Below are positions 2,305 to 33,948 of a stretch of 37,203 bases of DNA, in pieces. Position 1 is the stretch's first letter. The number at the start of each line of letters is the position of its first letter. The position numbers and the translations under genes are program-made. The notes below the pieces were generated by a model. The model saw only the letters and a list, made by a program, of their open reading frames with translations. It ran no database searches and was not told the DNA's origin. The stretch is from a virus. The stretch covers positions 1 through 37,203 of IMG/VR virus record IMGVR_UViG_3300028025_001243. One strand, written 5' to 3'.

Positions 2305-2926
2305 TAACCTGCTCCTCTGTATAGTCCCGCTCTTTACGTGGGCGTTGCCCACCAAGAAAGTTCAGTAGATTATTGACTGCACGATTGACACGCATACGCG
2401 CAGCATCCTCAGTCACTGATAGTTCTTTAGCCAAGGTGACATTATCACATCCATCACCGAAGCGCAGATAGATGATAGTCAACTGCTCATGAGTCAAACG
2501 AGCCAGAGCACGTTCAATATCAGCCATCATGGCAAACCAATTGCCACCCTCAGAGGCTACCTTTTTACTATTTGTAAATCCTAAATCGTTCAGTGCTGGT
2601 GCTACCTTGTCCTTACGCAGAACTGCTGGCAGAAGTAACTCTACAATCTCTCGGTCATAGTAATAGTTATCATCAACCTTGTAGCCAGAGGCACGAGCCT
2701 TCTCCTTCTGGCAGTAGTCCTTAGCAGCGTTACGCAGCGACCTAGCAATCAGTTTGATTGACTGCTTACCATCTAACTGCTCCCACACTTTAACCTTGTT
2801 AGGGTGCTCTAAGAACCATATCCATAGTTCCTGACGAATATCATCAGCATCACACATATGATACTTACGAGAATACTCGTAGGCTATAGCACCCACAACA
2901 CCAGCGTATGTTTCAGTAACTACCAC
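2222..2926 (-). CDS. sigma-70-like factor (sigma region 2/region 4-type)
   Basis: The 234-residue product has an N-terminal helical segment (residues 22-45, DADDIRQELWIWFLEHP) like sigma region 2, and a C-terminal helix-turn-helix (about 140-190: LTHEQLTIIYLRFGDG, then LAKELSVTEDAARMRVNRAV) like sigma region 4. The tail after 195 is acidic. It probably directs RNA polymerase to a subset of phage promoters, perhaps late ones, though it could also be a non-sigma HTH regulator. The GTG start overlaps the end of the metallophosphoesterase gene by seven bases. Confidence 0.75.
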   Translation of the reverse strand: MVVTETYAGVVGAIAYEYSRKYHMCDADDIRQELWIWFLEHPNKVKVWEQLDGKQSIKLIARSLRNAAKDYCQKEKARASGYKVDDNYYYDREIVELLLPAVLRKDKVAPALNDLGFTNSKKVASEGGNWFAMMADIERALARLTHEQLTIIYLRFGDGCDNVTLAKELSVTEDAARMRVNRAVNNLLNFLGGQRPRKERDYTEEQVNEQDNEDRPSDDDLQETIDSDGSEGLE

Positions 2927-3660
2927 TTAAACGTCTTTCCATCAACAGTGAATGACTGATTGACAATAGGAACCAACTGCGGTGTTACGTTCTTGCCATC
3001 GACATGCAAGATACCAAAGCCCTGTTGCCATGTGAATAGCCCAGCCTTGATATACTTTGCATTACGATAATCCATTAAGTTGCCCAGTTCCATGCCCCAG
3101 ATAGTCTTAGGCTTACCACCACGATAAGTCTGGGTCTGATGTGTCAAGCCCATGCGGTGCGTGTGACCACACACTACGGACATGCCTGAGCGCTTTGCTA
3201 AGCCCAATGCAGTAGCGCCAGCCGTAGGCTGTACGTTTCCTTCATCGCCGTGCATAAGCAACCAGCCAGGGGCTAGTTCATAAGGGTCCTTGTGATACTT
3301 AATCTCAAGTTCATCGAGACCAAGAAAGTTTTCTAATTCTAATTCAGGAAGTCCAAGGAATCCTGGCGCTCTCATAGCCACTGTGTTAAACAAGCGGTCA
3401 GTATGATTACTACGCACCATATGCTCAATCGTTAAGTCATACAGCACTTGGCGTGTAAGGTCTCTGTCACGTCCAATAGAACGTTCATACTCTAGTTCAG
3501 TACCCTTACTCCACTTCGATATAGTCTGCATATCCATTTCGTCTCCACAAGAGACGACAGTCTCAGGTTGATACCATTGGATAAACTTAGCCACTGCCTT
3601 GGTGGCTTCTACATCATGATATGGGACCTGCAAGTCGGAAATGCAAACTATATTTTTCAT
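2920..3660 (-). CDS. calcineurin-like metallophosphoesterase
   Basis: The 246-residue product carries the two-metal phosphoesterase motifs in order: SDLQ (D9), CGDEMD (D40), SNHTD (N85, H86), MHGD (H137) and GHTH (H166, H168). The usual first motif DxH reads D-L-Q and GNHD reads SNHTD, so one metal ligand is altered. Family members hydrolyse phosphodiesters or phosphomonoesters; in phages the substrate is usually unknown and could be DNA ends, nucleotides or host signalling molecules. The ATG overlaps the HNH gene's stop (ATGA). Cytoplasmic: no signal or membrane segment is visible. Confidence 0.85.
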   Translation of the reverse strand: MKNIVCISDLQVPYHDVEATKAVAKFIQWYQPETVVSCGDEMDMQTISKWSKGTELEYERSIGRDRDLTRQVLYDLTIEHMVRSNHTDRLFNTVAMRAPGFLGLPELELENFLGLDELEIKYHKDPYELAPGWLLMHGDEGNVQPTAGATALGLAKRSGMSVVCGHTHRMGLTHQTQTYRGGKPKTIWGMELGNLMDYRNAKYIKAGLFTWQQGFGILHVDGKNVTPQLVPIVNQSFTVDGKTFKW

Positions 3661-3989
3661 GGTTTCTTTTTTGTCGCTTTCTTCGCGGTTTTTTTCGCAG
3701 TTTTTTTAGCGCGACGTTTGTTCTCTAGTCCCACATTCTTACTTTTGGAAATGGTTCTGAGATTTGATATTCTGTCGTCGCCTGCTCTGCCTTTGTTGTT
3801 CTTGTGGTCGACTTCTGTATCTCTTGGTAATGTCTTTCCTGTGGCTTTCTCGTAATCAACGCGAGCCTTGTTGCTAGAAGTTGTAACCACTTCGCCATTC
3901 TTTTTCCTTCTTTTAAAGACGTAGATTGGACGTCCACCATTTTGCTTGCTGCCTTTATAGGGTCCAAAGATTTTCATTCTGTTGGCCAT
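3657..3989 (-). CDS. HNH endonuclease-like protein with lysine-rich tail
   Basis: Residues 58-90 match the phage HNH pattern: EVDHKNN (D61, H62), then DDRISNLR with N76 and a late Asn (KNVGLEN). Such proteins nick or cut DNA and are often homing endonucleases or packaging helpers. The last 20 residues are a Lys/Ala/Thr tail (RRAKKTAKKTAKK) like histone H1, which would bind DNA without specificity. A GAAAGG site precedes the ATG. A perfect extended -10 lies about 25 bases upstream inside the previous gene, so it may have its own promoter. It is not beside terminase, making a packaging role less likely. Confidence 0.78.
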   Translation of the reverse strand: MANRMKIFGPYKGSKQNGGRPIYVFKRRKKNGEVVTTSSNKARVDYEKATGKTLPRDTEVDHKNNKGRAGDDRISNLRTISKSKNVGLENKRRAKKTAKKTAKKATKKKP

Positions 3990-17966: not shown

Positions 17967-20261
17967 TTAGTATGCCTGCATTATTTGCATAATGTCTTGG
18001 TCGTTGTTTGATGCAATTGTTGCGTATAAAGATAAATCTACTGATGCCCACTTAAGTCCTGTGGCAGTAGATGAGTCAGCCTGTAGGTACTGACCATTAG
18101 TTCCAACTGTCAACTTGCCTGGTGTATCTGCAGATGTTGCTACAAGAATGTCACCTTTAGCATCGAATAGTGAACGAGCAATTGAGTCTGCTAGTTCAAA
18201 TGCTGTAAAGGTAATTACCTCTAGTATATCACCAGCGGTCAATGCTGCAAGAGATGTAATGCTTGAGCCGTTAGAGGCTGTGTAGTCAGATGTACGAGCA
18301 AGTAGTACACCATTGAGGTATACCTGCTCCTTACCTGGAATGTAAGACAAGGTAAGTCCATTAGCATCTACACCAGAGATTGTTGTCTCTCCGCCTGATG
18401 CTGTAAAGCGATAGCGGTAGATGTCTGCAGTAGACGATATTGAACCCCACTCAGAACCAGTCCAAGCATACATAGCATTGGTTGAAGAGTTCCAGTAGAT
18501 AGCACCAGTAAGAAGTGCATTTCCATCATTGTCTACAGATGGAGCAGATGACTTGCTACCAAGATAGCGGTCATCAAAATTGTCGTAGGTAGTTGCCGCT
18601 GCTGCTGCAGATGCTGCTGCTGCGGTAGCAGAACCAGCCACTGCATCTACATACTGCTTAGTAGCAGCACCTAGGTTAGCAGATGGGTCAGCGTTCAAGA
18701 CAAGGTTTCCTGTCATTGTTCCGCCAGCCTTGGCAAGATATGTTCCGCTTAGGCTAACTGCACCAGTGTTTCCGTCTACAGAAAGAACTGCATCTGTTGG
18801 GGTTAAGAGTTCCTGCCAGTTAGCAAGAGTTGATGCTCCTGCAGTCTTAAGAATAAATGATTTATTTAAATCTGTACGTACCGCAATATCGCCAACTTCT
18901 GCAGTAAGAGCAAGCATCGCAGCCTGTGAAGCAACTACAGATGTGTCACTGATTGCAATTGCTGGTAGTTGTCCAGTAGGAATCTTTCCATCGCCATCAA
19001 GGGATGCAATTCCGTTAACAGCAGCCTTTTGGTCTGTAAGATACTTAAGTGTAACCGCATCTTGGTTAGATGTTGGGTCTGCCACGTTAGTAAGTTTTTG
19101 GCTGTTAAGTGATACCGAACCAGTAGGTGCAGCCATTTGGTCTAAACGACTGGTGCGTACTTGTGTATCAAAATCTGAGATAGTAGATGCTGCTTGTGTA
19201 CCAGTGTGGTTAGCACGAGCATATGGATTGACAGCCATTTTAGCCTGGGTAATTGTTCCATCTGCAATATCTGAAGCAACAATAGTTCCGTCAACCAAGT
19301 CGGCAGAGGTAATAGTTCCACCAAGGTCTAACTTAGTTTTAGCAATAGCAGCAGAAGCGTTAATATCAGCGTTTACAATTGTTCCATCTAGAATCTTGGC
19401 AGAAGTTACCGCACCATCGGCAAGGTCTCCAGCAACGATAGTGCCGTCTAGAATTTTAGCCGAAGTAATAGCACCGTCTGCAATATCTCCAGCCACAATT
19501 GTGCCGTCAGCAATCTTGGCTGAGGTAATGGCTGAGTCTGCTATCTTGCCTGTTGTAACGTTAAGGTCTACCAACTTGGCTGTGGTTACATTAGCGTCAG
19601 CAATTTTGGCTGTAGTTATAGCGCTATCTGCGATGTCGCCAGTTGCAATAGTGCCATCAAGAATTTTTGCTGATGTGATTGCTCCATCTGCGATGTCTCC
19701 AGCAACAATTGTTCCATCGGCTATCTTTGCGCTAGTAATTGCAGAATCTGCAATCTTAGCGGTTGTAACATTTGCATCTGCAATTTTAGCAGTAGTAATA
19801 TTAGCATCTGTAATCTTGGCTGTAGTTACTGAGTTAGACTGCAACATGGCTGTTGTAATCATGTTGGTGTCTGTGGTTTCAAGAACGTTAGCAATAGTCA
19901 ACCCGTGTGCTGTGGTTGTATTTTCAATGTGGGTATTGGCTTCGCGGAAGTCGCGACCAATAGCCATGTGGCGTACTTTAGCGCCAGCAGAGTGAGCAAT
20001 TGCAGCAGTGCTATCTACTCCACGGACAACAGTAAGAGTATTACTGGAAGATGATGAAGGATAAGTTACTTCAACAATTTCTTCAAGGGCTGTATCTGGG
20101 TCAATAACAACAACAAATGTCTCAAGTGGTGATGTATTGCCAACAGTAATACCACCTAGTAGGGCAGTAGAAGAACCCACAATCATTGTTGTTGCGCTTG
20201 AGTTTAGCGCTGAGGTAAGAGTTGTTTCCTGGGAAGTGGAGGAATATTTACGGACTGTCAT
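17967..20261 (-). CDS. tail fibre with decapeptide-repeat shaft, 764 residues
   Basis: Residues 1-140 form an attachment domain with a beta-rich start (LTSALNSSATTMIVGSS; TLTVVRGVDSTAA). Residues 141-345 are about 18-20 decapeptide repeats of the type AITSAKIADG/TIVAGDIADG, a regular shaft. Next comes NHTGTQAASTISDFD, a motif typical of tail fibres, then NSQKLTNVADPTSNQDAV and a distal part ending with a beta tip (residues 640-764). It probably trimerises and forms the host-contacting fibre. It is encoded directly after the 301-residue adaptor-like gene and before the adhesin cassettes. Confidence 0.85.
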   Translation of the reverse strand: MTVRKYSSTSQETTLTSALNSSATTMIVGSSTALLGGITVGNTSPLETFVVVIDPDTALEEIVEVTYPSSSSSNTLTVVRGVDSTAAIAHSAGAKVRHMAIGRDFREANTHIENTTTAHGLTIANVLETTDTNMITTAMLQSNSVTTAKITDANITTAKIADANVTTAKIADSAITSAKIADGTIVAGDIADGAITSAKILDGTIATGDIADSAITTAKIADANVTTAKLVDLNVTTGKIADSAITSAKIADGTIVAGDIADGAITSAKILDGTIVAGDLADGAVTSAKILDGTIVNADINASAAIAKTKLDLGGTITSADLVDGTIVASDIADGTITQAKMAVNPYARANHTGTQAASTISDFDTQVRTSRLDQMAAPTGSVSLNSQKLTNVADPTSNQDAVTLKYLTDQKAAVNGIASLDGDGKIPTGQLPAIAISDTSVVASQAAMLALTAEVGDIAVRTDLNKSFILKTAGASTLANWQELLTPTDAVLSVDGNTGAVSLSGTYLAKAGGTMTGNLVLNADPSANLGAATKQYVDAVAGSATAAAASAAAAATTYDNFDDRYLGSKSSAPSVDNDGNALLTGAIYWNSSTNAMYAWTGSEWGSISSTADIYRYRFTASGGETTISGVDANGLTLSYIPGKEQVYLNGVLLARTSDYTASNGSSITSLAALTAGDILEVITFTAFELADSIARSLFDAKGDILVATSADTPGKLTVGTNGQYLQADSSTATGLKWASVDLSLYATIASNNDQDIMQIMQAY
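19227..19841 (-). repeat. 30-bp tandem coding repeats in the fibre shaft
   Basis: The DNA encodes successive decapeptides such as NVTTAKIADS and AITSAKIADG, with period exactly 30 bases over residues 141-300 and slightly irregular after that. Such tracts can expand or contract by recombination and so change fibre length. Confidence 0.85.
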
Positions 20262-20264
20262 ATT

Positions 20265-21170
20265 TTAGTACCTCGTGTAGTGGATTCGGGTTGGATAAAC
20301 ATCACGCAACTTCTTAGTCTCTTCATTAAGGCGTTGCTGGTATAGAGCAAGAAGGAAACGTGCAGTAGATGCACCAGAACCATATTGAATCTTGGTATCT
20401 GCGTTGTCTGCTTCTGCAGAATTATAGTTAAGACGACCTGGGTCAATAAATGCTGCAAGTCGATAGGCAGCGCCATACACGATAACGTCTTTACAGGATG
20501 AAGGTAGTCCTGTGACAGATTCAAATGTAGCGCTTGGACCTGATGCTGTAAGAGTGCTTGGCTTCTTAGTGTAGTAAACCTGTACTGTACGACCTGCATC
20601 AATGCGGTCATAGATTGAGATAGTCTGACCAGTAGCAAATGATGTTGCGTTTGCAAAAGAGTCTTGACGCCAGTTTCTTACAGGGACCCACTCTTGCGTT
20701 GGTCCTGTTGACTTCCATGAAACGTAAAGAATTGTCTCAGAGTCTGCAGGAAGTGAATATGTTGTGACAGCGGTATTAAAGTTAAATGTGTGAACACCAA
20801 CCCCGAAGAGGTTAGGAAATACAGCATCAATTGTGTCATTGATAGCCTTCTTTACTGTAGCGCGTGGGAATGTTGGAGCAATTACTACCTTGGTATTTGC
20901 TAGATGCTCTGCAGCGGTTGTACCTTGATACCCACGACCATAAGGAGCAACGGTTGCTGTAGACGAAATTCGGTCATACGAATCAATCCACAGCAACTCG
21001 TCTTCAATTTCAATCGTTCCCATACCAATATTACTAACGCTAGCAAGGTTAAGAGATAACCCTGTAGAAGTAACATTTTGGGTCAAGTGCGTAGCGCGGT
21101 CTTGCCTTAATGTATAGCCTGCTAGATTGAGAAGAATCTCATCTACCAAATTGGCATAGGTTGTTGTCAT
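20265..21170 (-). CDS. tail adaptor-like virion protein, 301 residues
   Basis: The product has an N-terminal helical region (YANLVDEILLNLAGYTLRQDR), a beta-rich insert (IEIEDELLWIDSYDR; APYGRGYQGTTAAEH), then VKKAINDTIDAVFPNLF, more beta strands and a C-terminal helix (CKDVIVYGAAYRLAAF; LLALYQQRLNEETKK). The helix-insert-helix layout and its place after the head genes resemble podovirus adaptor (tail tubular A-type) proteins linking portal and tail. The identity is inferred from layout; a generic structural protein is the fallback. AAGGAT precedes the ATG. Confidence 0.55.
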   Translation of the reverse strand: MTTTYANLVDEILLNLAGYTLRQDRATHLTQNVTSTGLSLNLASVSNIGMGTIEIEDELLWIDSYDRISSTATVAPYGRGYQGTTAAEHLANTKVVIAPTFPRATVKKAINDTIDAVFPNLFGVGVHTFNFNTAVTTYSLPADSETILYVSWKSTGPTQEWVPVRNWRQDSFANATSFATGQTISIYDRIDAGRTVQVYYTKKPSTLTASGPSATFESVTGLPSSCKDVIVYGAAYRLAAFIDPGRLNYNSAEADNADTKIQYGSGASTARFLLALYQQRLNEETKKLRDVYPTRIHYTRY

Positions 21171-21189: not shown

Positions 21190-21597
21190 TTACTTCTTTG
21201 GTTGTGATTTAAAAGGCTGTGCTGCTGCTTTACCAACACCAAATACGAACTTAGCAAATGGGTCAGTTGTTCCTGACTTCTTCTTTGCTGCTGGCTTTGG
21301 TGTTGGTTTAGAAGAACCAGCAGGAGTTCCTGTTCTTGTACGCTTTGCAGTAGGCTTAGATTGCGCCTGTCCGAAAGGTGTCCCTACTGAACTAGCAGCG
21401 CTTTTACCTGCTGCTGCAGAAACACGACGAGCACCATACATACGTGTAAGTGCTTCCTTCATTTCTGGATTAGCAGACTTTGCACCAGCAAGTGCTTTAG
21501 TCATGCCCATCTTCTTAATCTTGTCAATTGTTGCTTGAGATACTGTAACCTTCTTAGCGTTTCCGCCACCCATTGAAGGGTTCTTTGCCATTGCCAT
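21190..21597 (-). CDS. basic virion-associated protein with GTPFGQ motif, 135 residues
   Basis: The start MAMAKNPSMGGG is chosen because longer frames would run into the preceding gene. The N-terminal half is a compact domain (KKVTVSQATIDKIKKMGMTKA...EMKEALTRMYGARR) recalled from aquatic phages. The C-terminal half is Ser/Pro/Lys-rich low complexity with the motif VGTPFGQAQ, which also occurs in the 447-residue virion protein at 25482. It is strongly basic, so binding to DNA or to acidic capsid parts is possible. Function unknown. Confidence 0.6.
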   Translation of the reverse strand: MAMAKNPSMGGGNAKKVTVSQATIDKIKKMGMTKALAGAKSANPEMKEALTRMYGARRVSAAAGKSAASSVGTPFGQAQSKPTAKRTRTGTPAGSSKPTPKPAAKKKSGTTDPFAKFVFGVGKAAAQPFKSQPKK

Positions 21598-21602
21598 AGT
21601 TA

Positions 21603-21881
21603 TTACCATTTCACCTTGTCTGCCCAATATGCGGCACTCATTTTTCCTTTGGATATATTGCTTGCATGTCTTGCTTTGAAAGACCTACGACGTGCTGCAT
21701 ATGATGCAGATTCTCCTGCTTTTCTAGGTGAGCCAGAAACGCCTTGCTGTCCAAAGCGGATGGTTTTAACCTGGCTACCTACCTTAGCCACAACAACGTG
21801 TGACTTAGTAGGGTGGCTAGGAGTACGCTTAGGCTTGTTATAGCCTGCTACTCCTGCCCGTGTTAAACGTGAGTCTTTCAT
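21603..21881 (-). CDS. small basic protein (DUF6321-like)
   Basis: 92 residues, opening KDSRLTRAGVAGYNKPKRTP and continuing with SHVVVAKVGSQVKTIRFGQQGV, then KARHASNISKGKMSAAYWADKVKW. I recall near-identical proteins from cyanophages and other aquatic phages (DUF6321, unverified). Very rich in Lys/Arg and likely nucleic-acid binding; several neighbours share this. A genome-condensing or head-assembly role is possible but unproven. The ATG overlaps the upstream stop. Confidence 0.65.
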   Translation of the reverse strand: MKDSRLTRAGVAGYNKPKRTPSHPTKSHVVVAKVGSQVKTIRFGQQGVSGSPRKAGESASYAARRRSFKARHASNISKGKMSAAYWADKVKW

Positions 21882-22114
21882 CTGTAACCTTTTGTTTTCT
21901 TTGCGATTGCTTTAGGTTGCTTTACGAACTGCTTACCCTTTGCGTTACCTTTGGCTTTTGCCTTATTGGTAGCGGCTTTCTCTGCTGGGCTTAAAGCAGC
22001 CCATGCAGCAGCAGGTAAATATCTTTTCTTGCCCTTCGACGGCTTGCCATCAGAAGTCTTCCACTTCTGTGCAGTCCACTTCTTGAGTGACTGTTGAGAT
22101 TTAGCAAGTGCCAT
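21878..22114 (-). CDS. small basic protein (DUF5872-like)
   Basis: 78 residues, beginning with SLKKWTAQKWKTSDGKPSKG, then RYLPAAAWAALSPAEKAATNKAK and a Lys-rich tail. This order matches a family I associate with DUF5872, found in large DNA viruses and aquatic phages, function unknown. Part of a run of seven Lys-rich small proteins between tail and capsid genes. Coupled on both sides by overlaps. Confidence 0.65.
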   Translation of the reverse strand: MALAKSQQSLKKWTAQKWKTSDGKPSKGKKRYLPAAAWAALSPAEKAATNKAKAKGNAKGKQFVKQPKAIAKKTKGYR

Positions 22115-22299
22115 TATCTGTATCCCCCGCCTGCCTTCTTGTACTGAACAGCAAGCAACTGTGCCTTACGGGCAGACCATTCTCCAGGGTCTCCACCTTT
22201 AGAACCAGCCTTAATCTTCTTGAATAGTGCGGCTCTCATACCAGGCTTGGTGTAGTTACCTGCAGCATTAACTTTAGATTTAGGCTTTGCCTTTGGCAT
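22114..22299 (-). CDS. small basic protein, 61 residues
   Basis: KPGMRAALFKKIKAGSKGG followed by DPGEWSARKAQLLAVQYKKAGGGY, a sequence type recurrent in aquatic-phage genomes next to DUF5872-like genes. Strongly basic with a Trp; it likely binds nucleic acid. AAAAGGA lies just upstream of the ATG. Function unknown. Confidence 0.6.
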   Translation of the reverse strand: MPKAKPKSKVNAAGNYTKPGMRAALFKKIKAGSKGGDPGEWSARKAQLLAVQYKKAGGGYR

Positions 22300-22417
22300 T
22301 CTTTTTCCTTTTACGAGAGACTACTAACTTTCCATTTTTTTCAGTTACTGTCATACCAGCAGATTCTGTCTGGCGCTTTAACTGATTATACTTCTGAGCA
22401 GTAGTAAGTTTTTTCAT
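22280..22417 (-). CDS. 45-residue basic peptide
   Basis: The ATG overlaps the previous stop (TAATG). The product reads like a short helix plus basic end (MKKLTTAQKYNQLKRQTES, then KNGKLVVSRKRKKNAKGKA). It overlaps the 61-residue gene by 20 bases. Same Lys-rich character as its neighbours. Not recognised. Confidence 0.55.
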   Translation of the reverse strand: MKKLTTAQKYNQLKRQTESAGMTVTEKNGKLVVSRKRKKNAKGKA

Positions 22418-22605
22418 TACTTCTTCATCTGCTGACCTTTGGAGTTGTACTTACGATTCTGTAGTACGGCTCCCCAAAATTGTCCAGCCTCTGGGCTTCT
22501 TGCAGGTGAGTTCTGTAGGTTGTTCCATTTACGATAACTTTTTGCTGCTGTTGCACCGTAATCATAAACTTTATCAAAAATTGATTCGTTCTTCTTCTTA
22601 GCCAT
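22417..22605 (-). CDS. 62-residue basic protein
   Basis: The product begins MAKKKNESIFDKVYDYG, has a central helix (AATAAKSYRKWNNLQ) and ends NRKYNSKGQQMKK. It is flanked by overlaps on both sides and belongs to the same run of small basic proteins. Not recognised. Confidence 0.55.
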   Translation of the reverse strand: MAKKKNESIFDKVYDYGATAAKSYRKWNNLQNSPARSPEAGQFWGAVLQNRKYNSKGQQMKK

Positions 22606-22778
22606 TACATGCCTCCGAATAGTCCGCGACGTGGAGCCGCCTTCTTTGCTGCCTTCTTAGCAGTCTTCTTTACGACCTTCTTTTTGCCGTATTCCATCAT
22701 GCGCTCTTTAGCGCCTTCTGTTTTTTCATGGCGCTTCTTGGCAGCCATTGACTTGTACTTCTCGCCCTTTGCTGACAT
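22605..22778 (-). CDS. 57-residue histone-H1-like Lys/Ala protein
   Basis: Starts in a TAATG overlap. The sequence is basic throughout (MSAKGEKYKSMAAKKRHEK) and the C-terminal part is KKTAKKAAKKAAPRRGLFGG. The Lys-Ala repeat is the pattern of histone-H1-like tails, which bind DNA non-specifically and condense it. It may be packed with the genome or help package DNA. No family assigned. Confidence 0.6.
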   Translation of the reverse strand: MSAKGEKYKSMAAKKRHEKTEGAKERMMEYGKKKVVKKTAKKAAKKAAPRRGLFGGM

Positions 22779-22906
22779 TACTTCTTGCCCATCTTCTTCT
22801 TAGCGGTCTTCTTGACCATCTTCTTGCCTGACTTCTTTGCTGCAGCCTTGGCCATAGCCATACCCTTAGCAGTGTATGCGTATTCTTTTCCGTTTACCAT
22901 TGGCAT
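22778..22906 (-). CDS. 42-residue histone-H1-like Lys/Ala peptide
   Basis: TAATG-coupled to both neighbours. The N-terminus (MPMVNGKEYAYTAKGM) is followed by AKAAAKKSGKKMVKKTAKKK, again a histone-H1-like tail. Note that the HNH protein at 3657 carries a similar tail. Function unknown, DNA binding likely. Confidence 0.6.
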   Translation of the reverse strand: MPMVNGKEYAYTAKGMAMAKAAAKKSGKKMVKKTAKKKMGKK

Positions 22907-23343
22907 TATATTGCTCCTACTTCCTTGAGTTTGGATACTGTCTTGTTCTGGATAATGTTTGTGTCGGGCATGGTAGTAGCGTCATAAGCAGAACCCATAG
23001 AATCAGATGCTCTTTGAGCCTCTTGAACTGCTTTTAGGGTTGTACCTGCTGGTTGTATTCCCTCAGACCTTGCCTTGCGGTAGGCTTCTAACTCGCCTTC
23101 CCATTTCTTGTTGGTGGTTTGCTTCTGTGAGGAAGCATCTCCCGTATTCAACAAGAGTCCTGCTGCCTTGCACCCGAAGCAGACTTCTGGTCCACCACAG
23201 GCGGTATGGTCAACAGCGATTGTTTCTGACGGGAATGGTACGTCTGAAACCTCATCGCAGTTCAAGCATCCATACTTTGTAACCTTGTAGTCGTGAGCGT
23301 CAGTGAATCCCCATTCAAGCACCTTACTGATATGTTCACACAC
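22906..23343 (-). CDS. zinc-finger protein near capsid gene, 145 residues
   Basis: The first half has several Cys/His pairs (MCEHISK; YGCLNCDEV; TACGGPEVCFGCKAAG), so at least two zinc sites are likely. The second half is helical (KKWEGELEAYRKARSEGIQPAGTT; VQEAQRASDS). The recurring phrase GIQPAGT is familiar from phage proteins encoded near capsid genes. It may be a scaffold-like or capsid-associated factor. Function not established. Confidence 0.6.
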   Translation of the reverse strand: MCEHISKVLEWGFTDAHDYKVTKYGCLNCDEVSDVPFPSETIAVDHTACGGPEVCFGCKAAGLLLNTGDASSQKQTTNKKWEGELEAYRKARSEGIQPAGTTLKAVQEAQRASDSMGSAYDATTMPDTNIIQNKTVSKLKEVGAI

Positions 23344-23664: not shown

Positions 23665-24852
23665 TTATGCACGAACTGATGAAGCAGTTTCGATGCGGTA
23701 TAGAGCCTCTGGACGATAGATTGACCAGTTGATGATACCGTGCCAGCCGACTGGGCGGAAGCGGTTCAACTTGTCAACAACGTTACCAAATTCAATACCT
23801 GGTTCCTTCCATACTGCTTCAGCAAGTGCTTGCTGTCCGAGTACGTAGGTGTTGTAAACACGAGCCTTTGGAGTAACTGTAAGTGTGTTTGTTCCAACAG
23901 TTCCTGAGTTAGCAACAGACACTGTAAGTGTTGTGTTTGTTGTACCAACTTCAATTGCTGTAATCAAAGCACCTGAACCTACGTTAGTTCCAGAGATAGC
24001 ATCTCCAACCTCAGCGAGTCCACCGAATGCGCCGTTTGCAACGACGATTGTGAATGCGCCTGAAACACCGCTTACTGCTGGAGCAGTAGCAAGTGCTGTG
24101 AGAGCCTTACCTGAGATTGTGTTTGTCATGCGTGGTGTCTCGATGAAACGGACACCTTCCCATGCTCCGAGTTCACCAGCAAGAAGTGGACCAGCGTTCT
24201 GGTACTCATGTGGTGTACGCCAGATGTTGTTACCTGTCTCTGTACGAAGGTCGTGTGAGACTTCTGGGTGGATGTATGAAACATACATTCCGCCACGGGT
24301 TACAACGTTAGCAGCGCGCAACTTAGTTACTGCGTAGCGAACATCGCGTCCCTTGAAGGTATCTGTTGTGTCAATTGTTGACTTAGCAGCAGTTGTTGAA
24401 AGTGCTCCGCCAGATTCGCGGATGACGTTTGTACCTGCATCAAGAACAGCGGCGATACCGTTGTCAAGTGTTGTTGCCATGTTGAATGAGACTGCGTTTG
24501 CAATCCATGGGTCAACATCTGCAAGTGTCATAAGTGCCAACTTGCGTGTTGGGAGTACTACACGACCAAGTTCAACCTGTGACACATCAAGTGTTGTGGT
24601 TGCTGGTAGTGCTACTGCATCTGGGTCTACAGTTTCAGCGAGAGTCGCACCTGCGATTGAGGTGTCAGAAATATCGTTGTGGAACTGGAAACGGATTGAA
24701 GAACCGTCGTGAGTTGGGTTTCCGACCTTCTTGTCCGCAATTGCGCGGAACTGTGGTGTTGAACGCAAGTTGAGTTCAATCAACTTATCGTACGCCATAG
24801 TTACAAGATTGGAACCTAACCCAGAGGTTGTGGTTGAAAAGACATCAGGCAT
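23665..24852 (-). CDS. major capsid protein, N4-gp56-like HK97 fold
   Basis: The 395-residue product opens FSTTTSGLGSNLVTMAYDKL and contains GSSIRFQFHNDISD, TLDVSQVELGRVVL, DNGIAAVLDAGTNV, and later HPEVSHDLRTETG and VYNTYVLGQQALAEAVW. This is the ordered signature of the N4-gp56 family of HK97-fold major capsid proteins. Residues about 250-329 (TALATAPAVSGVSG to TNTLTVTPKA) form an extra beta domain inserted between FIETPRM and the VYNTYVLG strand. AAGGAG precedes the ATG. Preceded by a scaffold-like gene. Confidence 0.88.
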   Translation of the reverse strand: MPDVFSTTTSGLGSNLVTMAYDKLIELNLRSTPQFRAIADKKVGNPTHDGSSIRFQFHNDISDTSIAGATLAETVDPDAVALPATTTLDVSQVELGRVVLPTRKLALMTLADVDPWIANAVSFNMATTLDNGIAAVLDAGTNVIRESGGALSTTAAKSTIDTTDTFKGRDVRYAVTKLRAANVVTRGGMYVSYIHPEVSHDLRTETGNNIWRTPHEYQNAGPLLAGELGAWEGVRFIETPRMTNTISGKALTALATAPAVSGVSGAFTIVVANGAFGGLAEVGDAISGTNVGSGALITAIEVGTTNTTLTVSVANSGTVGTNTLTVTPKARVYNTYVLGQQALAEAVWKEPGIEFGNVVDKLNRFRPVGWHGIINWSIYRPEALYRIETASSVRA

Positions 24853-26827: not shown

Positions 26828-28117
26828 TTACCTCAACTCATTTTTAAGCGACTGGAACATATTGATAGATGTATTAATTGCAGTAGATGTGCCGTCATAA
26901 CGCTTGTCATTAACAACCATCTGGGTTAATTCCAAATCATTAGGAAGTCTGTAGTTACCCTTATCGTCTTTGAAGTTCAAAGCCTGTAGGACAAGCGGGT
27001 CTTTGGTATCTACTGTTGTCTCAAGGGCATTTCCAATAGCCTTAAGAACTGGGTCTACGTACTTGTTAGCATTCTCGCCAGGCTGGATAAGTCCCTGAAC
27101 TGCCATGAAGCGTGTGCCAACCTTCTTCTGTAAACCTGTTACATATTGGCTAAACATTTCTTGTTGAACTTTTTCGTCAGGGTTTGAAAGAATATCTTTG
27201 ATGAGAGGAGATACTGATGCAAAGTCAGGTTCAGGCTCATAATTATTTTGGTTGTACGCTTTAATAGCATTATAAACAGTTTTAGCAGTTCCGCCCAAAT
27301 CTTCTGCAGTAAACTGTGCTTCTGGAAAGTTATCCACTAAGAAGTCAGCAAGAAACTTAGTTTGCTCTTCTTCGGTAAATCCTAGACCTTTAGCAGAAGT
27401 AACGCCAGTTGAAATTGTTTTAGTTTGGAAAACGCCATCTTTGTCCTTGAGTCTACCTGTGTAAACCTTTTGACCTGCAGCATCAATCTTCTGCTTACCT
27501 GTAGCCTTATCCATAACAGGCTTACTCTTCTTGTCATAGACATAGACTTTTTCAGTCTTAGTATCTGTTGTTGTAGGCTGGTTCTGAGCCTTGACCTGTG
27601 CATTCCAACTATCTTGAAACTTCTTATCAAGTTCTGGGGCAGGGAACTGACCCCATGCTGTAAAGTAAGCGTCGCTATAAGCGGTTCGTGCATCACCCAA
27701 ATCTTTAAATTTCAAAGCGGACTGAACCTGCTTTGTGAACTGGGTGGTCATGTCAGGCTGCTTAATCTCTTTAGGCTTAAGCGTAGCGTTGTAATTTGCT
27801 AAATACTGTAGTGGCATTAACTGGCTAGGGATAGCAGCAGAGATAACCTTATCCATAGCAGCCATCTCATCAAGACCAACGATACCTAGCGGTGTGGTTG
27901 ACTTGCTGAGTTTTGACTTACGGAGCATATCCTGAAACGCTTGAAATTCTGTCTGGTATCCACCAAGTCCAGGACCTGACATCTGGCGTTGGATATCCTG
28001 TAGCGCTGCCTGCTTAGCAACAAGGTCAGTTGTTGTAACGAATCTTACAAAAGGATTTGTAGAGTCACCATAGATGCCAAGGATATTGGATGCTACTGTC
28101 TGTGTCTTTTCAGCCAT
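26828..28117 (-). CDS. virion protein, 429 residues
   Basis: The N-terminal region is helical (VASNILGIYGDSTNPF; VAKQAALQDIQRQM); a charged middle region (KVYVYDKKSKPVMDKATGK) has beta strands; and the end is helical (VLKAIGNALETTVDT; NTSINMFQSLKNEL). No catalytic motif is visible. It is tied to the 1943-residue gene by TAATG and precedes the 447-residue gene by two bases, so the three may form an internal core. Not recognised. Confidence 0.6.
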   Translation of the reverse strand: MAEKTQTVASNILGIYGDSTNPFVRFVTTTDLVAKQAALQDIQRQMSGPGLGGYQTEFQAFQDMLRKSKLSKSTTPLGIVGLDEMAAMDKVISAAIPSQLMPLQYLANYNATLKPKEIKQPDMTTQFTKQVQSALKFKDLGDARTAYSDAYFTAWGQFPAPELDKKFQDSWNAQVKAQNQPTTTDTKTEKVYVYDKKSKPVMDKATGKQKIDAAGQKVYTGRLKDKDGVFQTKTISTGVTSAKGLGFTEEEQTKFLADFLVDNFPEAQFTAEDLGGTAKTVYNAIKAYNQNNYEPEPDFASVSPLIKDILSNPDEKVQQEMFSQYVTGLQKKVGTRFMAVQGLIQPGENANKYVDPVLKAIGNALETTVDTKDPLVLQALNFKDDKGNYRLPNDLELTQMVVNDKRYDGTSTAINTSINMFQSLKNELR

Positions 28118-31100
28118 TACTTAGCCTCCCTCAATATTCCAGCAAATACCCCGTAGTACATGCGGGAGAATTCAGGATTCTGTAGCATTAGTGTTTCTCC
28201 TAGTGTAACGAGTTCGTTGCGCATCAATGTGGCAATTCCACCAGCAGATAGTTCTGCATAGTTAGAAGCCTTTTGCATGTTTAATACTTTTCTGAGTTCA
28301 TCAAATCGTGCATAGAACTCTGCTGTCTCCTTGTAAACAGGTGACTTCTGGAAAGCAGGGTCTTGCAAAGCAAGCCCGATGTTTGCTACCTTCTGGTCAT
28401 TTACGCCTGTGACAATAGTGTCAGATGGACGAGCACCAAACTGCTTATCAAGGAGTGCTATCTGCTCGTTGTACCAGTAGTCTGTATAACCGCCAGCAAT
28501 CTGATTTTCTGCAATCTGACTCTTAAGCATTGAGTAAACCATGCCTTCTGACTCTTGTGCTATTTCCTGGGTAGATAGTGCACGGCGTGAGCCGCTCTTC
28601 TTCTGCCAGTTATAGTACTTAAGAGAAAACTCTCCACCAGGGAAGAAGTAAGGAACTATGTCTCCAGTAGGTGTTGCGTACTTGTCAGCAATCTCAGGGT
28701 TGTTGTTAAGGAATGTCCAAGCATCTGCAGAACCAGATGTTCCTGGTGTGCTTCCGCTCACAGCAACTAGAATGTTGTTGATGCCAAACTTGTCAGAGAA
28801 CTCTACAACTGCTGCGTTGCGGTCTCCAGGATGTCTTTCGTTGATATCCTTCCATGCCTTGTAAAGCATGCTCATGGTCATGAAGTTCTTCTTGTTCTCA
28901 GGGTTTTTAACCTTGGTGAGAACTTCTTGAATAGGAGTTGCAGGAGAGATAGACTGAAAAATGCCTCCCCAAAGATTCATATTCTTTGCAAGACGCTCAG
29001 CATCATTAAACAATTTTGTACGATTAGCATCTGATGCAAATGGATTATCTCCATACTGACCAGTAGATGCTAAGTAAGAAGCCCAATCTTTAACAGCGCG
29101 CTGTGTAGATGCATCATCTCCAAGTACCGCCGCTGATGTCTTCTTGAGCCATGCAGGAAAGATAATATCTCCAAGTGTCTTTGGTTGTCCAAATGGTGTC
29201 AAAATGTCACGCAAGAAATCATCTGCAGGACCAAATGCACTAGAACGTCCACTAAATTGATACGCTGCAACCATAGCAGGTCCCATTCCAGGAACTACTG
29301 GGTTGAGAGAACCAAATGCAAGGTTAAGAGACTCAACAGGTGATGTAATCTGTAGTGCATCTTTAGCACTAAGGTTCTTGCCTGCAAGTGCACCAAGTAT
29401 GCTGCCTACGATTGGCATTTTAAATTTAATCTGGTCTTGACCTTCTTCTTTGTACAAGAAGCCTTGGTTATCATCGTATGTCATTCCTGACACGTCATAG
29501 ATAACGTTTGAGCCTTCCTTGGTCAAGGCATCAAATGCTTTGCCAGCCTTGTATATAGGTGTTGGGTTAGACCAAGTAAGTTCAGCCCACTTACCAATTG
29601 TATTGTAGTGAGCCTGTGCGAATGGTGCTATCAAACGTGCAGAGTTTGCCCACTGCTTCTGCTTTGCAGCATCATAGAATAGGTTCTTAACGTACTCTGC
29701 AGCCTGTTCTCCAGCCATAGAATCAAGAGTCCTGAGAGATGCTCCACCCTTGTGTACATAATCTGGATTAGCCTGACGCTTCTTGAGAGTAGTGTTAATA
29801 ACACGAAGTGGCTTAGGAACTCTTCCAAGTACCTTTTTTCTACCAGTGGGTGCAAACGCTTTATTGGCGTTGCTACGAAGTTTAATCAAGTCATCAGTGC
29901 TGAGCATATCTGCGTATCCTGCAACAAAGTCCCAGTAAGCAGCGTCAAACTCAGGTCCAAAGTTAGCCTTTGATTCCATGCGGGCTGCTAAATTAAAGAA
30001 CATGTCGGTAAATGCTCGTGCTCTTGTAGTGATTGCATCTCCTACAAACTTCTCAGTCATGTTCTTAGCAACAGAACCAGTAAGTTCTTCTGGCTTAAAG
30101 AATGCTTCAATCTGACGTGCGAATACCTTTTCAGCAGCAAGTACGCCTTCTGTGGTTAGTCCCTTTTGACGATAAGGAGGCTTAATAGTAACTACCTTGC
30201 CGCCAGATGTTGTAACCTTTAGTTCGCCGTCACGAATAAGGTCCATAATCAAATTACGCTTTGAACCTTGACCAGCAAGGAGGTTCAACTGACCAGCAAC
30301 GCTGTCACGTTGTGAAGCATCAAAGAGCCAAATGCTTAGATTCTCTTTGTTGATATTGTCAGCAATTACTCCAGGACCAGTCTCCTTGAAAGGATTCTTA
30401 AGAAGGAGTTCACGCATTCCTTCGTTGTCATCGTAAATTGCTGAAACGAATTCTTTGAGTTTATTGCCTGGCTCATCAAATGTAGCAACAAGGTTATCAA
30501 TGTATTCAACCTGTGCTTCTGGACGACCAATCTGCATAACTCTGACTACATCAGGCATGAACTTATCTGATGAGAAGTTGTTGATTGTCCAAGAAAGAGC
30601 CTGTAAAAAGTCTGGGTGTTCAGGAGTAATATCTTCGTAAGCCTTGAACATAGCGCCCTTACGTCCTTCTGCGCCATAGTCACCACGTGATGTTCCACGC
30701 ATAAGAGACATACGAGCAATAACAGACTCAGAGAACTCAACCTCTGCATCTGTAGCCTTAAAAGAATCACCTAGTGCGTTTACGCCATACTGAGAACGCT
30801 TTGCAAGCATCTTCTGGATAGCGTTACCATTAGGGTCAGAAATCATCATAGAAATGAATCCCATGGGGTTATTAAAAAGGCTGTTATGTCCAGAGAAGAA
30901 CTGACGCATCTGCATTTCTGCGATGTTACGGAAGATGTATGCAGCACGACCAACTAACTGTGTTGTACGCCACAAGTCACCAAACTCTTCAAGAAGAATT
31001 CTTGCAGACTTAGCACCACCATAGACTGGGTTGTTAGTCTTAAACTTAATAACCGCTTCATTGACTCTACGTGAATCAGGGAAGTTAATGACATCGCGTA

Positions 31101-33948
31101 CTAATTGAGATTCAAGAATACCCTTTTCAAGACGGATGTTCTTGCCTTCTGTAACAATTAGACCAGCACCCTTGTTGCCAATGGCATTTCCAAGAGAGTA
31201 TGAAGTGATGATAGCCTCTTCTTTGCCGTTAATCTTTGTGGCATTACGAAGTGACTTAATCTCTTCATCGCTAAGATTAATTGCTTTTCCGATTTCATCT
31301 ACAAGTCTGCCTATGCCGTTTTGTACGGCAGCGGCACGTTCAGCGTTTGTAGTTGCAGCAAATACCGCGCGCTGAGTACTCTCGATAATCTTTTCTTGTG
31401 CGCCTTTTGAAATAATACCAGCAAACTTAGACGATACGCCAATAGAACTAATCCAGTCTTCGACTGTATTGTTCACTGCTGTAATATCGTTTAGATTGAC
31501 AGCGGTTGAGCGAATATAGAATCTACCGAACGATTTGTTAATATTCTCTGCAAACTTAATTGCATCCATATTAACCATTGGAATCATACGTGCAGCAGGA
31601 TTAGTTGCAATCTTTACGCCAGCAGAAATAGACTGTTTAATCTTAAGTGGGTCAGCACCAGGAACGAATTGGTTCAAGAATACCTTGAATACGTCATCTG
31701 CTGTCTGGGCATCAACCAGTTCTTTAACCATGTTGTCATCTAGTTTGCGACCAAATAGACGGCGTAGTTTAACTGGGTCTGTTTCCTTAGCAATCAATTC
31801 GCCGATAGGCTGGAACTGACGTCCTAAAAGGAACTTAAGTGGCTTAGAAAAGTCCTCACCAATGTTACCCATAAAGTTATCTGTAAGACCAATCTGAGAC
31901 TGAATTGACTCAATCATTAGTCTATTATCGGCAATCTCTGCCTCTAACTTAAGTAAGTTTTTAATTCCAGCATTGTTAGGGTCCTGGATAAGTTCACGAA
32001 GAATGTCTGGGTCCTCGTTAGCCTTCTGGCGAAGTTGCTGGAACCAGACTTCTTTATCTTCTAAATCTAGTTGCTTGTTAAGCAGGTCATCAAGTTCATT
32101 CTGACGTGCAGCAAGTGAAGCCTTTGTATCCTGAACTGAATCAAGTAACTTAAGTACGTTAGGACCAAGGTTAGTTGGGTCTGCAAACTCTGCTGCAGCG
32201 TTGCCAATCTCTGCGCGTGTAGCAGCAATTTTATTAGGATTGGTGACTACTACTCCGCCTTCTTTGCCATAGATAGCACGGACATTGGTAAAGCCATCTG
32301 GCTTCCAAATCTTTTCAATAGTGCTAGTAATCTTGCTCATTACCGCAAAGTTTTTATAGTCTGCAACTTCACCAATAAGAGCACCAAGAGTCTTGGCTGC
32401 TACAAGTTCGTCACCAACTGCAAATAGAGAACCTACAAAACCATCAAGGTTTGCGGCATCATCACGCAGGTTTGAAGCAAGTTCACTGTAGACCTTAAAG
32501 TCTGGGTCCTTGACGTTCTTGCCTAGTTTATCAAGAGAATCTGCTAACTTAGAACGACGAAGCGCTTCTGCAGCGCGTACAGTATCGTCAGCATTTGTGA
32601 AATCATCAGCAAGGTCAAGGAGTTTTAACTGTTTTGCATCGTTTGCTGTGACTACATACTCGTCTAGACCATGAGCACCAACGCTGATTTTGCCATATTG
32701 AGGCACTTCATCAAGGATAATGTGACCATCAAAGAAGCCGCCAGTGTTTTTCATATCTGCTGAAAGCAGGTCCATAGCCTGTGTAAGTTCACCTGTTTGA
32801 GTCTTAGGATTGCTTACAAACCACTCTGCAATAGACTTATTAGAAAGAGTTTGCTTTACAGCGGTATCTCCAGGCTCATTTGCCCAGCGCATCCACTTGT
32901 TAGTCTCAAAGTTAAGCAGTTTCTTGGCTGTTTCAACTTCTTTATTGACAATAGCCTTCTCTGTAGCAATAATCTCTTGCTCTTTAGCCTTATACTGATT
33001 AGCAATACGCTTGTATGGGCTAGAAATCTTCTTAGTTTGCTTATCACGAAGAATTTGACCGCTTTTTTCAAGGTCATCAATTGCTTCTTTGCTAAGATTA
33101 TCAAAATATGACTTAGTATAGGGTGCAACTTCTTCTGCTAACTTAGTTGCTTTCTGCCCTTGGCTAATAATCTTGCCTACAGCGCCAGGTCCAAACCATG
33201 TTGATGGGTCTGCAGCCACGTTAAGGGTTGCATCCACAATACCTGACATAACTTTATAGGCGTTTCCATTAGGATTCATACCTACGCCACTAAAAATACC
33301 GCGTCCCAATGTGTAAGACTTACCATTGATAAGACCAAACTGAGCCATTTCCTTGGCTTGAGCCTTACCAATTTTGCTTTCAGGTGATACGAAGAAGCCA
33401 GAACCTGTGCCGTTGTTTGCATTACGCAATACTTGACCGAGAGTTGTACTCTCTCCTAGGATTCCTTGGCTTAAACTTTTAACAAATTCAGCGCTGGAAC
33501 CTTCTTCTCCACGTAGCATGCCAGTAACGTCACGTCCCAGTGTAGTTGCCATGTCATAAGGTGAACGAAGTCCAGCAAATATTAAACGAGTAGCACCTTT
33601 GAAAGGGTCATATACAGCCTCTTTAAATGCAGACTCAATAGAACCAAGGATTCCGCGCTTAGGCTTTACCTGGCTCTTAATCTTATCTACTTTAAATGAA
33701 TCAGCCTTGAGTGCAGCGATACCATCAATGGTAGTAATCTTGTTCAATCCTGGTGTATCTGCAGTAAGCCCTTGGCCCACCATTGACATAACAAGGTCTT
33801 TGCTTATGCCAGGATACTTCTTAAGGATGTTATTAAAGTTATCTAACTCGCTACCACGCAAGCCTGCTTTTTTATAGTCAAGCATCTGCTGTAATGGAGT
33901 ACGAGTATCTGATAGATACCCTTTAATGGCTTCATTTACATTAGCCAT
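28117..33948 (-). CDS. giant virion protein, probable internal/ejection protein (1943 residues)
   Basis: Largest gene in the window. The N-terminus (EAIKGYLSDTRTPLQQML) leads into long helical regions with many Asn/Lys-rich turns. Two amphipathic patches occur near residue 110-140 (KGATRLIFAGLRSPYDMATT) and near 1500 (MPIVGSILGALAG); I see no protease, lysozyme or transglycosylase motif. It sits between portal and scaffold/capsid genes, as large internal virion proteins do in podoviruses, so ejection with the DNA is the best guess. Tape-measure function is less likely because no tail-tube gene follows. A 'polyvalent'-type multidomain protein is a third option. Confidence 0.65.
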   Translation of the reverse strand: MANVNEAIKGYLSDTRTPLQQMLDYKKAGLRGSELDNFNNILKKYPGISKDLVMSMVGQGLTADTPGLNKITTIDGIAALKADSFKVDKIKSQVKPKRGILGSIESAFKEAVYDPFKGATRLIFAGLRSPYDMATTLGRDVTGMLRGEEGSSAEFVKSLSQGILGESTTLGQVLRNANNGTGSGFFVSPESKIGKAQAKEMAQFGLINGKSYTLGRGIFSGVGMNPNGNAYKVMSGIVDATLNVAADPSTWFGPGAVGKIISQGQKATKLAEEVAPYTKSYFDNLSKEAIDDLEKSGQILRDKQTKKISSPYKRIANQYKAKEQEIIATEKAIVNKEVETAKKLLNFETNKWMRWANEPGDTAVKQTLSNKSIAEWFVSNPKTQTGELTQAMDLLSADMKNTGGFFDGHIILDEVPQYGKISVGAHGLDEYVVTANDAKQLKLLDLADDFTNADDTVRAAEALRRSKLADSLDKLGKNVKDPDFKVYSELASNLRDDAANLDGFVGSLFAVGDELVAAKTLGALIGEVADYKNFAVMSKITSTIEKIWKPDGFTNVRAIYGKEGGVVVTNPNKIAATRAEIGNAAAEFADPTNLGPNVLKLLDSVQDTKASLAARQNELDDLLNKQLDLEDKEVWFQQLRQKANEDPDILRELIQDPNNAGIKNLLKLEAEIADNRLMIESIQSQIGLTDNFMGNIGEDFSKPLKFLLGRQFQPIGELIAKETDPVKLRRLFGRKLDDNMVKELVDAQTADDVFKVFLNQFVPGADPLKIKQSISAGVKIATNPAARMIPMVNMDAIKFAENINKSFGRFYIRSTAVNLNDITAVNNTVEDWISSIGVSSKFAGIISKGAQEKIIESTQRAVFAATTNAERAAAVQNGIGRLVDEIGKAINLSDEEIKSLRNATKINGKEEAIITSYSLGNAIGNKGAGLIVTEGKNIRLEKGILESQLVRDVINFPDSRRVNEAVIKFKTNNPVYGGAKSARILLEEFGDLWRTTQLVGRAAYIFRNIAEMQMRQFFSGHNSLFNNPMGFISMMISDPNGNAIQKMLAKRSQYGVNALGDSFKATDAEVEFSESVIARMSLMRGTSRGDYGAEGRKGAMFKAYEDITPEHPDFLQALSWTINNFSSDKFMPDVVRVMQIGRPEAQVEYIDNLVATFDEPGNKLKEFVSAIYDDNEGMRELLLKNPFKETGPGVIADNINKENLSIWLFDASQRDSVAGQLNLLAGQGSKRNLIMDLIRDGELKVTTSGGKVVTIKPPYRQKGLTTEGVLAAEKVFARQIEAFFKPEELTGSVAKNMTEKFVGDAITTRARAFTDMFFNLAARMESKANFGPEFDAAYWDFVAGYADMLSTDDLIKLRSNANKAFAPTGRKKVLGRVPKPLRVINTTLKKRQANPDYVHKGGASLRTLDSMAGEQAAEYVKNLFYDAAKQKQWANSARLIAPFAQAHYNTIGKWAELTWSNPTPIYKAGKAFDALTKEGSNVIYDVSGMTYDDNQGFLYKEEGQDQIKFKMPIVGSILGALAGKNLSAKDALQITSPVESLNLAFGSLNPVVPGMGPAMVAAYQFSGRSSAFGPADDFLRDILTPFGQPKTLGDIIFPAWLKKTSAAVLGDDASTQRAVKDWASYLASTGQYGDNPFASDANRTKLFNDAERLAKNMNLWGGIFQSISPATPIQEVLTKVKNPENKKNFMTMSMLYKAWKDINERHPGDRNAAVVEFSDKFGINNILVAVSGSTPGTSGSADAWTFLNNNPEIADKYATPTGDIVPYFFPGGEFSLKYYNWQKKSGSRRALSTQEIAQESEGMVYSMLKSQIAENQIAGGYTDYWYNEQIALLDKQFGARPSDTIVTGVNDQKVANIGLALQDPAFQKSPVYKETAEFYARFDELRKVLNMQKASNYAELSAGGIATLMRNELVTLGETLMLQNPEFSRMYYGVFAGILREAK

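Follow-up and report, generated by a model that had tools for sequence, protein, structure and literature searches.

The window analyzed here, a 37,203-bp viral record from IMG/VR that is classed as linear, carries between its capsid and tail genes a block of eight small, strongly basic and putatively nucleic-acid-binding proteins, which would form one translationally coupled late cassette. The cassette appears to consist of a conserved core, made up of p61 and p78, which together correspond to a single DUF5872-type protein, and of the compact module p92, which capsid-internal proteins also contain, around which there is a fast-changing set comprising p42, p57, p62, p45, and p135, many of them lysine-tailed. 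By analogy with the internal proteins IPI-IPIII of phage T4, we favor the interpretation that these are nucleic-acid-binding internal head proteins that are probably ejected with the DNA, and we put the chances of this at about even.

A previous sequence-only reading of this DNA had described seven small, basic, coupled genes, and its description was borne out. The seven ORFs are on the minus strand and encode 92, 78, 61, 45, 62, 57, and 42 amino acids (aa), exactly as claimed, with pIs of 10.1-11.6 and net charges of +9 to +20 apiece. The next gene downstream of p92 (21190-21609), which that reading had missed, is equally basic, and we therefore consider the block to comprise eight genes rather than seven. 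In order of transcription these are p42 (22778..22906; 42 aa, pI 10.5, 33% Lys), a variable member with the N-terminus MPxVxGKxxxYT; p57 (22605..22778; 57 aa, pI 10.5), also variable, which has a Lys/Ala-rich tail with RRGLFGGM at its end and in relatives often forms one ORF with p42; p62 (22417..22605; 62 aa, pI 10.1), which groups by phmmer single linkage with the GQxxGAxLQxRxY...KK proteins of relatives; p45 (22280..22417; 45 aa, pI 10.9), which is rare; p61 (22114..22299; 61 aa) and p78 (21878..22114; 78 aa), corresponding to the N-terminal and C-terminal halves of a DUF5872-type protein; p92 (21603..21881), a 92-aa module predicted to be folded; and p135/p139 (21190..21609; 139 aa from the ATG at 21609, pI 11.1, net charge +23), a fast-evolving gene found at 51 loci. 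The coordinates likewise agree with the claimed coupling, with five TAATG junctions, one ATGA, and one 20-base overlap. One base is shared within TAATG at the p145-p42, p42-p57, p57-p62, p62-p45, and p61-p78 junctions, p78 and p92 overlap by the 4 bases of ATGA, p45 and p61 overlap by 20 bases, and the ATG of the eighth gene overlaps the stop codon of p92. Eleven of about 55 window genes encode proteins of pI >10, a count that takes in p57, which the overlap filter had dropped, and only three of these are outside the block. Given 11 such genes among ~55, a run of at least eight would arise by chance with P = 6.1e-6. The net charges of the eight proteins sum to +123.

Short ORFs in an A-rich stretch could be spurious products of base composition, and it is in the block that the most extreme AT skew of the window is found (-0.234), while p45 and p62 have few relatives. 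We nonetheless regard such an artifact as hardly credible, given that dN/dS is far below 1 in the testable genes, the coupling is conserved, and there are family matches and confidently predicted folds. Median dN/dS was 0.057 for p61, 0.059 for p78, and 0.107 for p92, values similar to those of the major capsid protein (MCP; 0.118) and p83 (0.070), and these three genes are under strong purifying selection. The variable members gave medians of 0.14 (p57), 0.23 (p42), and 0.39 (p135). It is for these six genes that an artifactual origin is refuted, p45 and p62 having had no usable pairs. The assignment of three proteins to aquatic-phage families also held, as p92, p78, and p61 match phrog_7595 (4e-40), phrog_14910 (4.9e-38), and phrog_17747 (1e-34), and p42 makes a fourth (phrog_33179, 7.6e-8); these profile matches span nearly the whole of each protein. 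No match among isolate phages was obtained for p135 and p62, and an NCBIfam search gave no matches. As for the histone H1-like tails attributed to two proteins, the likeness stands as a matter of composition (p57 and p42) but not of family, as no histone family in Pfam matched up to E = 1.

The structural genes are on the minus strand, beginning with a partial TerL (cut by the end of the record), the portal, and two small ORFs. They continue in the direction of transcription with a 1,943-aa protein, two more proteins, a scaffold-like protein, the MCP (23665..24852; phrog_1357, 1.7e-59), and the small, acidic p83 and p145, after which come the eight-gene block, p301 as its downstream border (20265..21170; phrog_7578), and a tail-fiber protein (17967..20261; phrog_38058, 1.8e-82), all on the same strand. 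The upstream border, p145 (22906..23343, minus strand), is a 145-aa protein with CxxC motifs; relatives have either a long form (~145 aa) or a short form (~104 aa) without the N-terminal cysteine region (L115, L116, L168). Streptomyces phages such as Immanuel3 have MCPs with 44-49% identity to that of the window, and among the matches listed (80), the MCPs of environmental contigs are 89-99% identical to it. In Immanuel3 (L339), only two small ORFs separate the MCP from the minor tail protein, and 22 tRNA genes are immediately upstream of the capsid region. The 1,943-aa protein (28117-33948) had no PHROG (E <= 0.01) or Pfam match and is a candidate large internal or tail protein. Apart from the block, a basic 110-aa protein (3657-3989) matched HNH_3 endonuclease barely above the cut-off, and 2222-2926 and 2920-3660 gave weak, sub-cut-off matches to sigma-70 region 4 and metallophosphatase.

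p61 precedes p78 in 145 of the 145 loci that have both, and the two are <=30 nt apart in 116 of these; many of the loci were found via p61, such that the co-presence of the two genes is biased but their order is not. In about 16 sequences (e.g., P0001) they occur as a single 131-aa ORF, which matches phrog_17747 and then phrog_14910 in tandem, and the same fusion is present in 391 confirmed stretches of bacterial genomes as well as in Azospirillum and Phaeobacter plasmids. Because they are fused in both phages and bacteria, p61 and p78 represent the two halves of a single DUF5872-type protein. On their own, p61 and p78 of the window gave no match to DUF5872 (PF19197) at its cut-off of 27.5 bits. 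A phage fusion (L148) scored 25.2 bits and an Azospirillum homolog 28.5 bits, and from these scores we consider p61-p78 to be homologous to DUF5872, yet not filed there. An alga virus, CpV-BQ1, has been annotated with DUF5872 and DUF5754 proteins (PMC12085832).

The bacterial forms mostly have a C-terminal extension like the SAP/Rho_N helix-extension-helix; the Rho_N match of the Phaeobacter homolog was 7.7e-12, and the other SAP/Rho_N-like tails were judged by eye. Standalone DUF5872 proteins are common in Methylobacterium, Sphingomonas, Aureimonas, Azospirillum, and Pseudomonas (L170-L249), most of them with a SAP/Rho_N-like C-terminus, and in Belnapia arida (L220:3980-5701) a 573-aa DUF5872-type protein has a long, repetitive Lys/Arg/Ala-rich tail reminiscent of H1. 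No conserved neighbors of the bacterial DUF5872 genes were recognized, which is a weak negative given the overlapping ORFs of this high-GC DNA. The AlphaFold model of the p61-p78 fusion had a mean pLDDT of 90.1 and a pTM of 0.57, and its single Foldseek match in the PDB (E 9.6) was not meaningful. A SAP-like fold for p61 itself (FANC_SAP, E = 0.083) was considered and rejected, as the fold search gives no support; only the added C-terminal tail of the bacterial homologs is SAP/Rho_N-like. The suggestion that the virion region contains a block of DNA-binding proteins is strongly upheld as far as a dedicated block of small basic genes within the structural region is concerned, and in part for binding, at which the charge and the SAP/Rho_N or H1-like tails of the bacterial homologs hint. 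Strains of Pseudomonas, Methylobacterium, Sphingomonas, and Azospirillum with the p61-p78 fusion provide easy models for finding the binding partner of the domain.

The cassette recurs in other phages, next to structural or packaging genes in some of them. In MEP401, a 48-aa basic protein, a protein with a DUF6321-like start, p61, and p78 are immediately before TerL, and in HTVC034P a DUF6321-like protein, basic ORFs of 96 and 45 aa, p61, and p78 adjoin a DnaA-like gene, outside an evident structural module. In Hodr, the p61-p78 fusion is accompanied by a DUF6321-like protein and by other small ORFs, of which one is acidic. CRP-9 has p92 followed by p61 and p78, with one acidic ORF in between, and in the cyanomyovirus S-E7 DUF6321 matches the C-terminal part of a protein with a structural annotation. 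Relatives extend across many freshwater and marine phages, including pelagiphages, HMO-2011-type phages, cyanophages, and phages of Roseobacter and Methylophilales, and nearly all are annotated as "hypothetical." In phage C72C1 (L003:6378-6784), two adjacent basic ORFs of 57 and 77 aa downstream of a p92 relative resemble, by eye, another split DUF5872-type pair. Since homologs exist on bacterial chromosomes, the p61-p78 domain is not virion-specific. The cassette could encode proteins that are made late, stay out of the virion, and have the nucleic acid of the host or the phage as their target, such as RNA chaperones or nucleoid or ribosome binders, as the chromosomal DUF5872-Rho_N homologs without phage context and the differing gene locations among phages would allow. 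We find this rather unlikely, as p92 is fused to head proteins and the genes are located between capsid and tail genes in this clade.

Relatives of p92 with 46-78% identity were found in Roseobacter phages, cyanophages, HMO-2011, and a Vibrio phage, as well as in a phage from a metagenome whose head genes are P22-like. The p92 fold was modeled with a pLDDT of 94.7 and a pTM of 0.83. It had no significant match among PDB structures (best E 1.0), and neither sequence nor fold searches gave a PDB relative for p92, p78, p61, or the p61-p78 fusion. In a viral fold library, it matched the ICP1 ORF125 capsid protease, an XkdF-like protein, and a 1,393-aa viral protein of the same length as CL131 ORF012, all with a probability of 1.00. 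The profile comparisons place the shared domain within these proteins: residues 184-261 of ICP1 gp125 match phrog_7595 (6.5e-11) and are C-terminal to the Peptidase_S78_2 domain (37-160), and CL131 ORF012 matches phrog_7595 (4.4e-9) between its portal and InPase/MuF domains. No protease domain was found in p92, whose match is restricted to the non-protease part of ICP1 gp125. The CL131 portal protein ORF012 was identified by LC-MS/MS in purified virions (PMC6293099), and MuF proteins are head components, the domains fused to them being presumed to pass into the host (PMC5512222). In the literature on cassette-carrying phages, virion proteomics was found only for CL131 (the portal fusion) and ICP1 (virion MS). 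The fusion of the p92 domain to a capsid protease in one case and to a portal-MuF virion protein in another leads us to link the block to the interior of the head, with p92 as a predicted head-associated module, and a natural p78-p92 fusion of 178 aa (L322) ties p61, p78, and p92 together.

A 95-aa protein of Tunisvirus fontaine2 (BFVD V9SE36) also matched the p92 fold (probability 1.00, E = 7.7e-3), a hint that phages and Marseillevirus-type viruses have this module in common. DUF5754 was not accepted as the family of p92 (best relative 19.5 bits, cut-off 27.4), and the resemblance of p92 to DUF6321 was weak (15.7 bits, cut-off 28.5). A 299-aa p92 ORF in one contig (L291) looks like a spurious upstream extension and was not used.

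Alternatively, p92 and its partners may function in procapsid assembly or maturation, recruiting or positioning the protease, scaffold, or portal from within the core and then being lost or left behind, in which case neither genome binding nor ejection is required. This would be in keeping with the fusions of the p92 domain, in which its partner is an S78_2-type capsid protease in ICP1 and a portal-MuF protein in the other case, and with the closeness of the block to the MCP and scaffold genes. It leaves unexplained the uniform basic charge, the C-terminal lysines, the turnover of genes, and the SAP/Rho_N-tailed bacterial homologs, and we consider it rather unlikely.

Charge and turnover were analyzed in 54 same-clade contigs that have the whole p145-p301 interval, in which ATG ORFs were tiled. 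A pI >9.5 was found for 302 of 304 interval ORFs, a description of the interval without a neutral model behind it, and the summed net charge per interval ranged from +40 to +160. In the non-redundant set, 104 of 106 interval ORFs were basic, compared to 37 of 151 in the flanks, where the tiling includes false ORFs. Single linkage with phmmer sorts the interval ORFs into 21 families, DUF6496 and DUF6321 among them, which are present in some contigs and absent from others, and p92 may be located before or after p61-p78. This swapping of genes with retention of positive charge suggests a kit of DNA-binding proteins. The last four residues contained on average 1.99 K/R, where the composition of the individual proteins would predict 1.02 (z = 11.8, a value that ignores relatedness inside families), while flanking ORFs had no such excess (z = 0.6). 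When families were compared, 16 of the 21 were above expectation (Wilcoxon p = 2.1e-4). These additional lysines at the C-terminus may serve as a common tag, either electrostatic or for targeting.

The summed charge of +123, the lysine-rich tails, and the conservation of charge while sequence varies would be compatible with protamine- or histone-like neutralization of the packaged genome, the bulk condensation that the sequence-only reading had put forward and that proved to be its weakest point. We consider this very unlikely because, if 12-60 copies of each protein are assumed, all eight together would balance no more than ~2-9% of the DNA charge (1.8-8.8% of the phosphates of a genome taken to be 42 kb on the basis of related contigs of ~41-43 kb); at 360 copies each, they would balance 53% for the same assumed genome. 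In addition, the models of p92 and p61-p78 predict compact, folded domains and not tails, and it has been stated that there is no evidence of basic proteins contributing much to phage DNA neutralization (PMC3281028).

According to our preferred interpretation, that of internal head proteins, the products of the cassette would be made together with the head, would be taken into the procapsid or attach to the packaged genome, and would travel with the DNA into the host, where they may serve as a coat or shield for it or target the nucleic-acid machinery of the cell. Points against this are the position of the cassette outside an evident structural module in some phages, the chromosomal bacterial homologs of p61-p78, and the fact that neither a capsid targeting sequence nor a prohead protease could be recognized in the phage. 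No shared N-terminal leader of the kind expected for a capsid targeting sequence was evident by eye among the listed interval ORFs, and no prohead protease family was matched by the head genes of the window, several of whose products match nothing.

In a literature search of partial coverage, we found no earlier description of a cassette that swaps genes while conserving charge, nor of a connection of p92 with a capsid protease and a portal fusion, and the component families are known solely as DUFs or PHROGs without assigned function. More speculatively, and with a rather low probability in our estimation, many aquatic phages may pack fast-reassorting small basic DNA-binding proteins in the head that coat the incoming genome and shield it from host defenses; of the modules, p92 also occurs in a giant-virus protein and p61-p78 in SAP/Rho_N-tailed proteins of bacteria. 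If this were true, charge and perhaps the C-terminal lysine tag would be selected rather than sequence, contradicting the view that basic proteins are minor in tailed-phage genomes. If the proteins are internal to the head, aquatic phages bring a far richer protein cargo into the cell than has been assumed, and the above statement on phage DNA neutralization would need revision.

Several known systems resemble parts of the cassette. Compared to DUF5872 and DUF5872-Rho_N proteins, the version in the window is split over two genes and has no SAP/Rho_N tail. DUF6321 (PF19846) and DUF6496 (PF20106) are small basic proteins of the same interval in relatives but are absent from the window. ICP1 gp125 and the CL131 portal-InPase-MuF protein share the domain with p92 by profile and fold, but here it is a stand-alone 92-aa gene. 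The lysine-rich C-termini of block-type proteins are paralleled in T7 gp16, in which five positive C-terminal residues are required for infectivity (PMC8954989). Virions of the chlorella virus PBCV-1 package several different basic proteins that have been proposed to bind viral DNA (PMC3281028); this is a eukaryotic virus with mostly larger basic proteins, and we liken it to the block by description only. The closest parallel for our interpretation is T4, whose IPI-IPIII are small and basic, are replaced by other basic proteins in relatives, and are ejected, with about 360 copies of each (PMC9026906). Like these, the block comprises several small basic proteins that are exchanged between related phages; it differs in having no sequence relation to the T4 proteins that we could find and no recognized targeting sequence, and in having far more gene families, many with C-terminal lysine tails.
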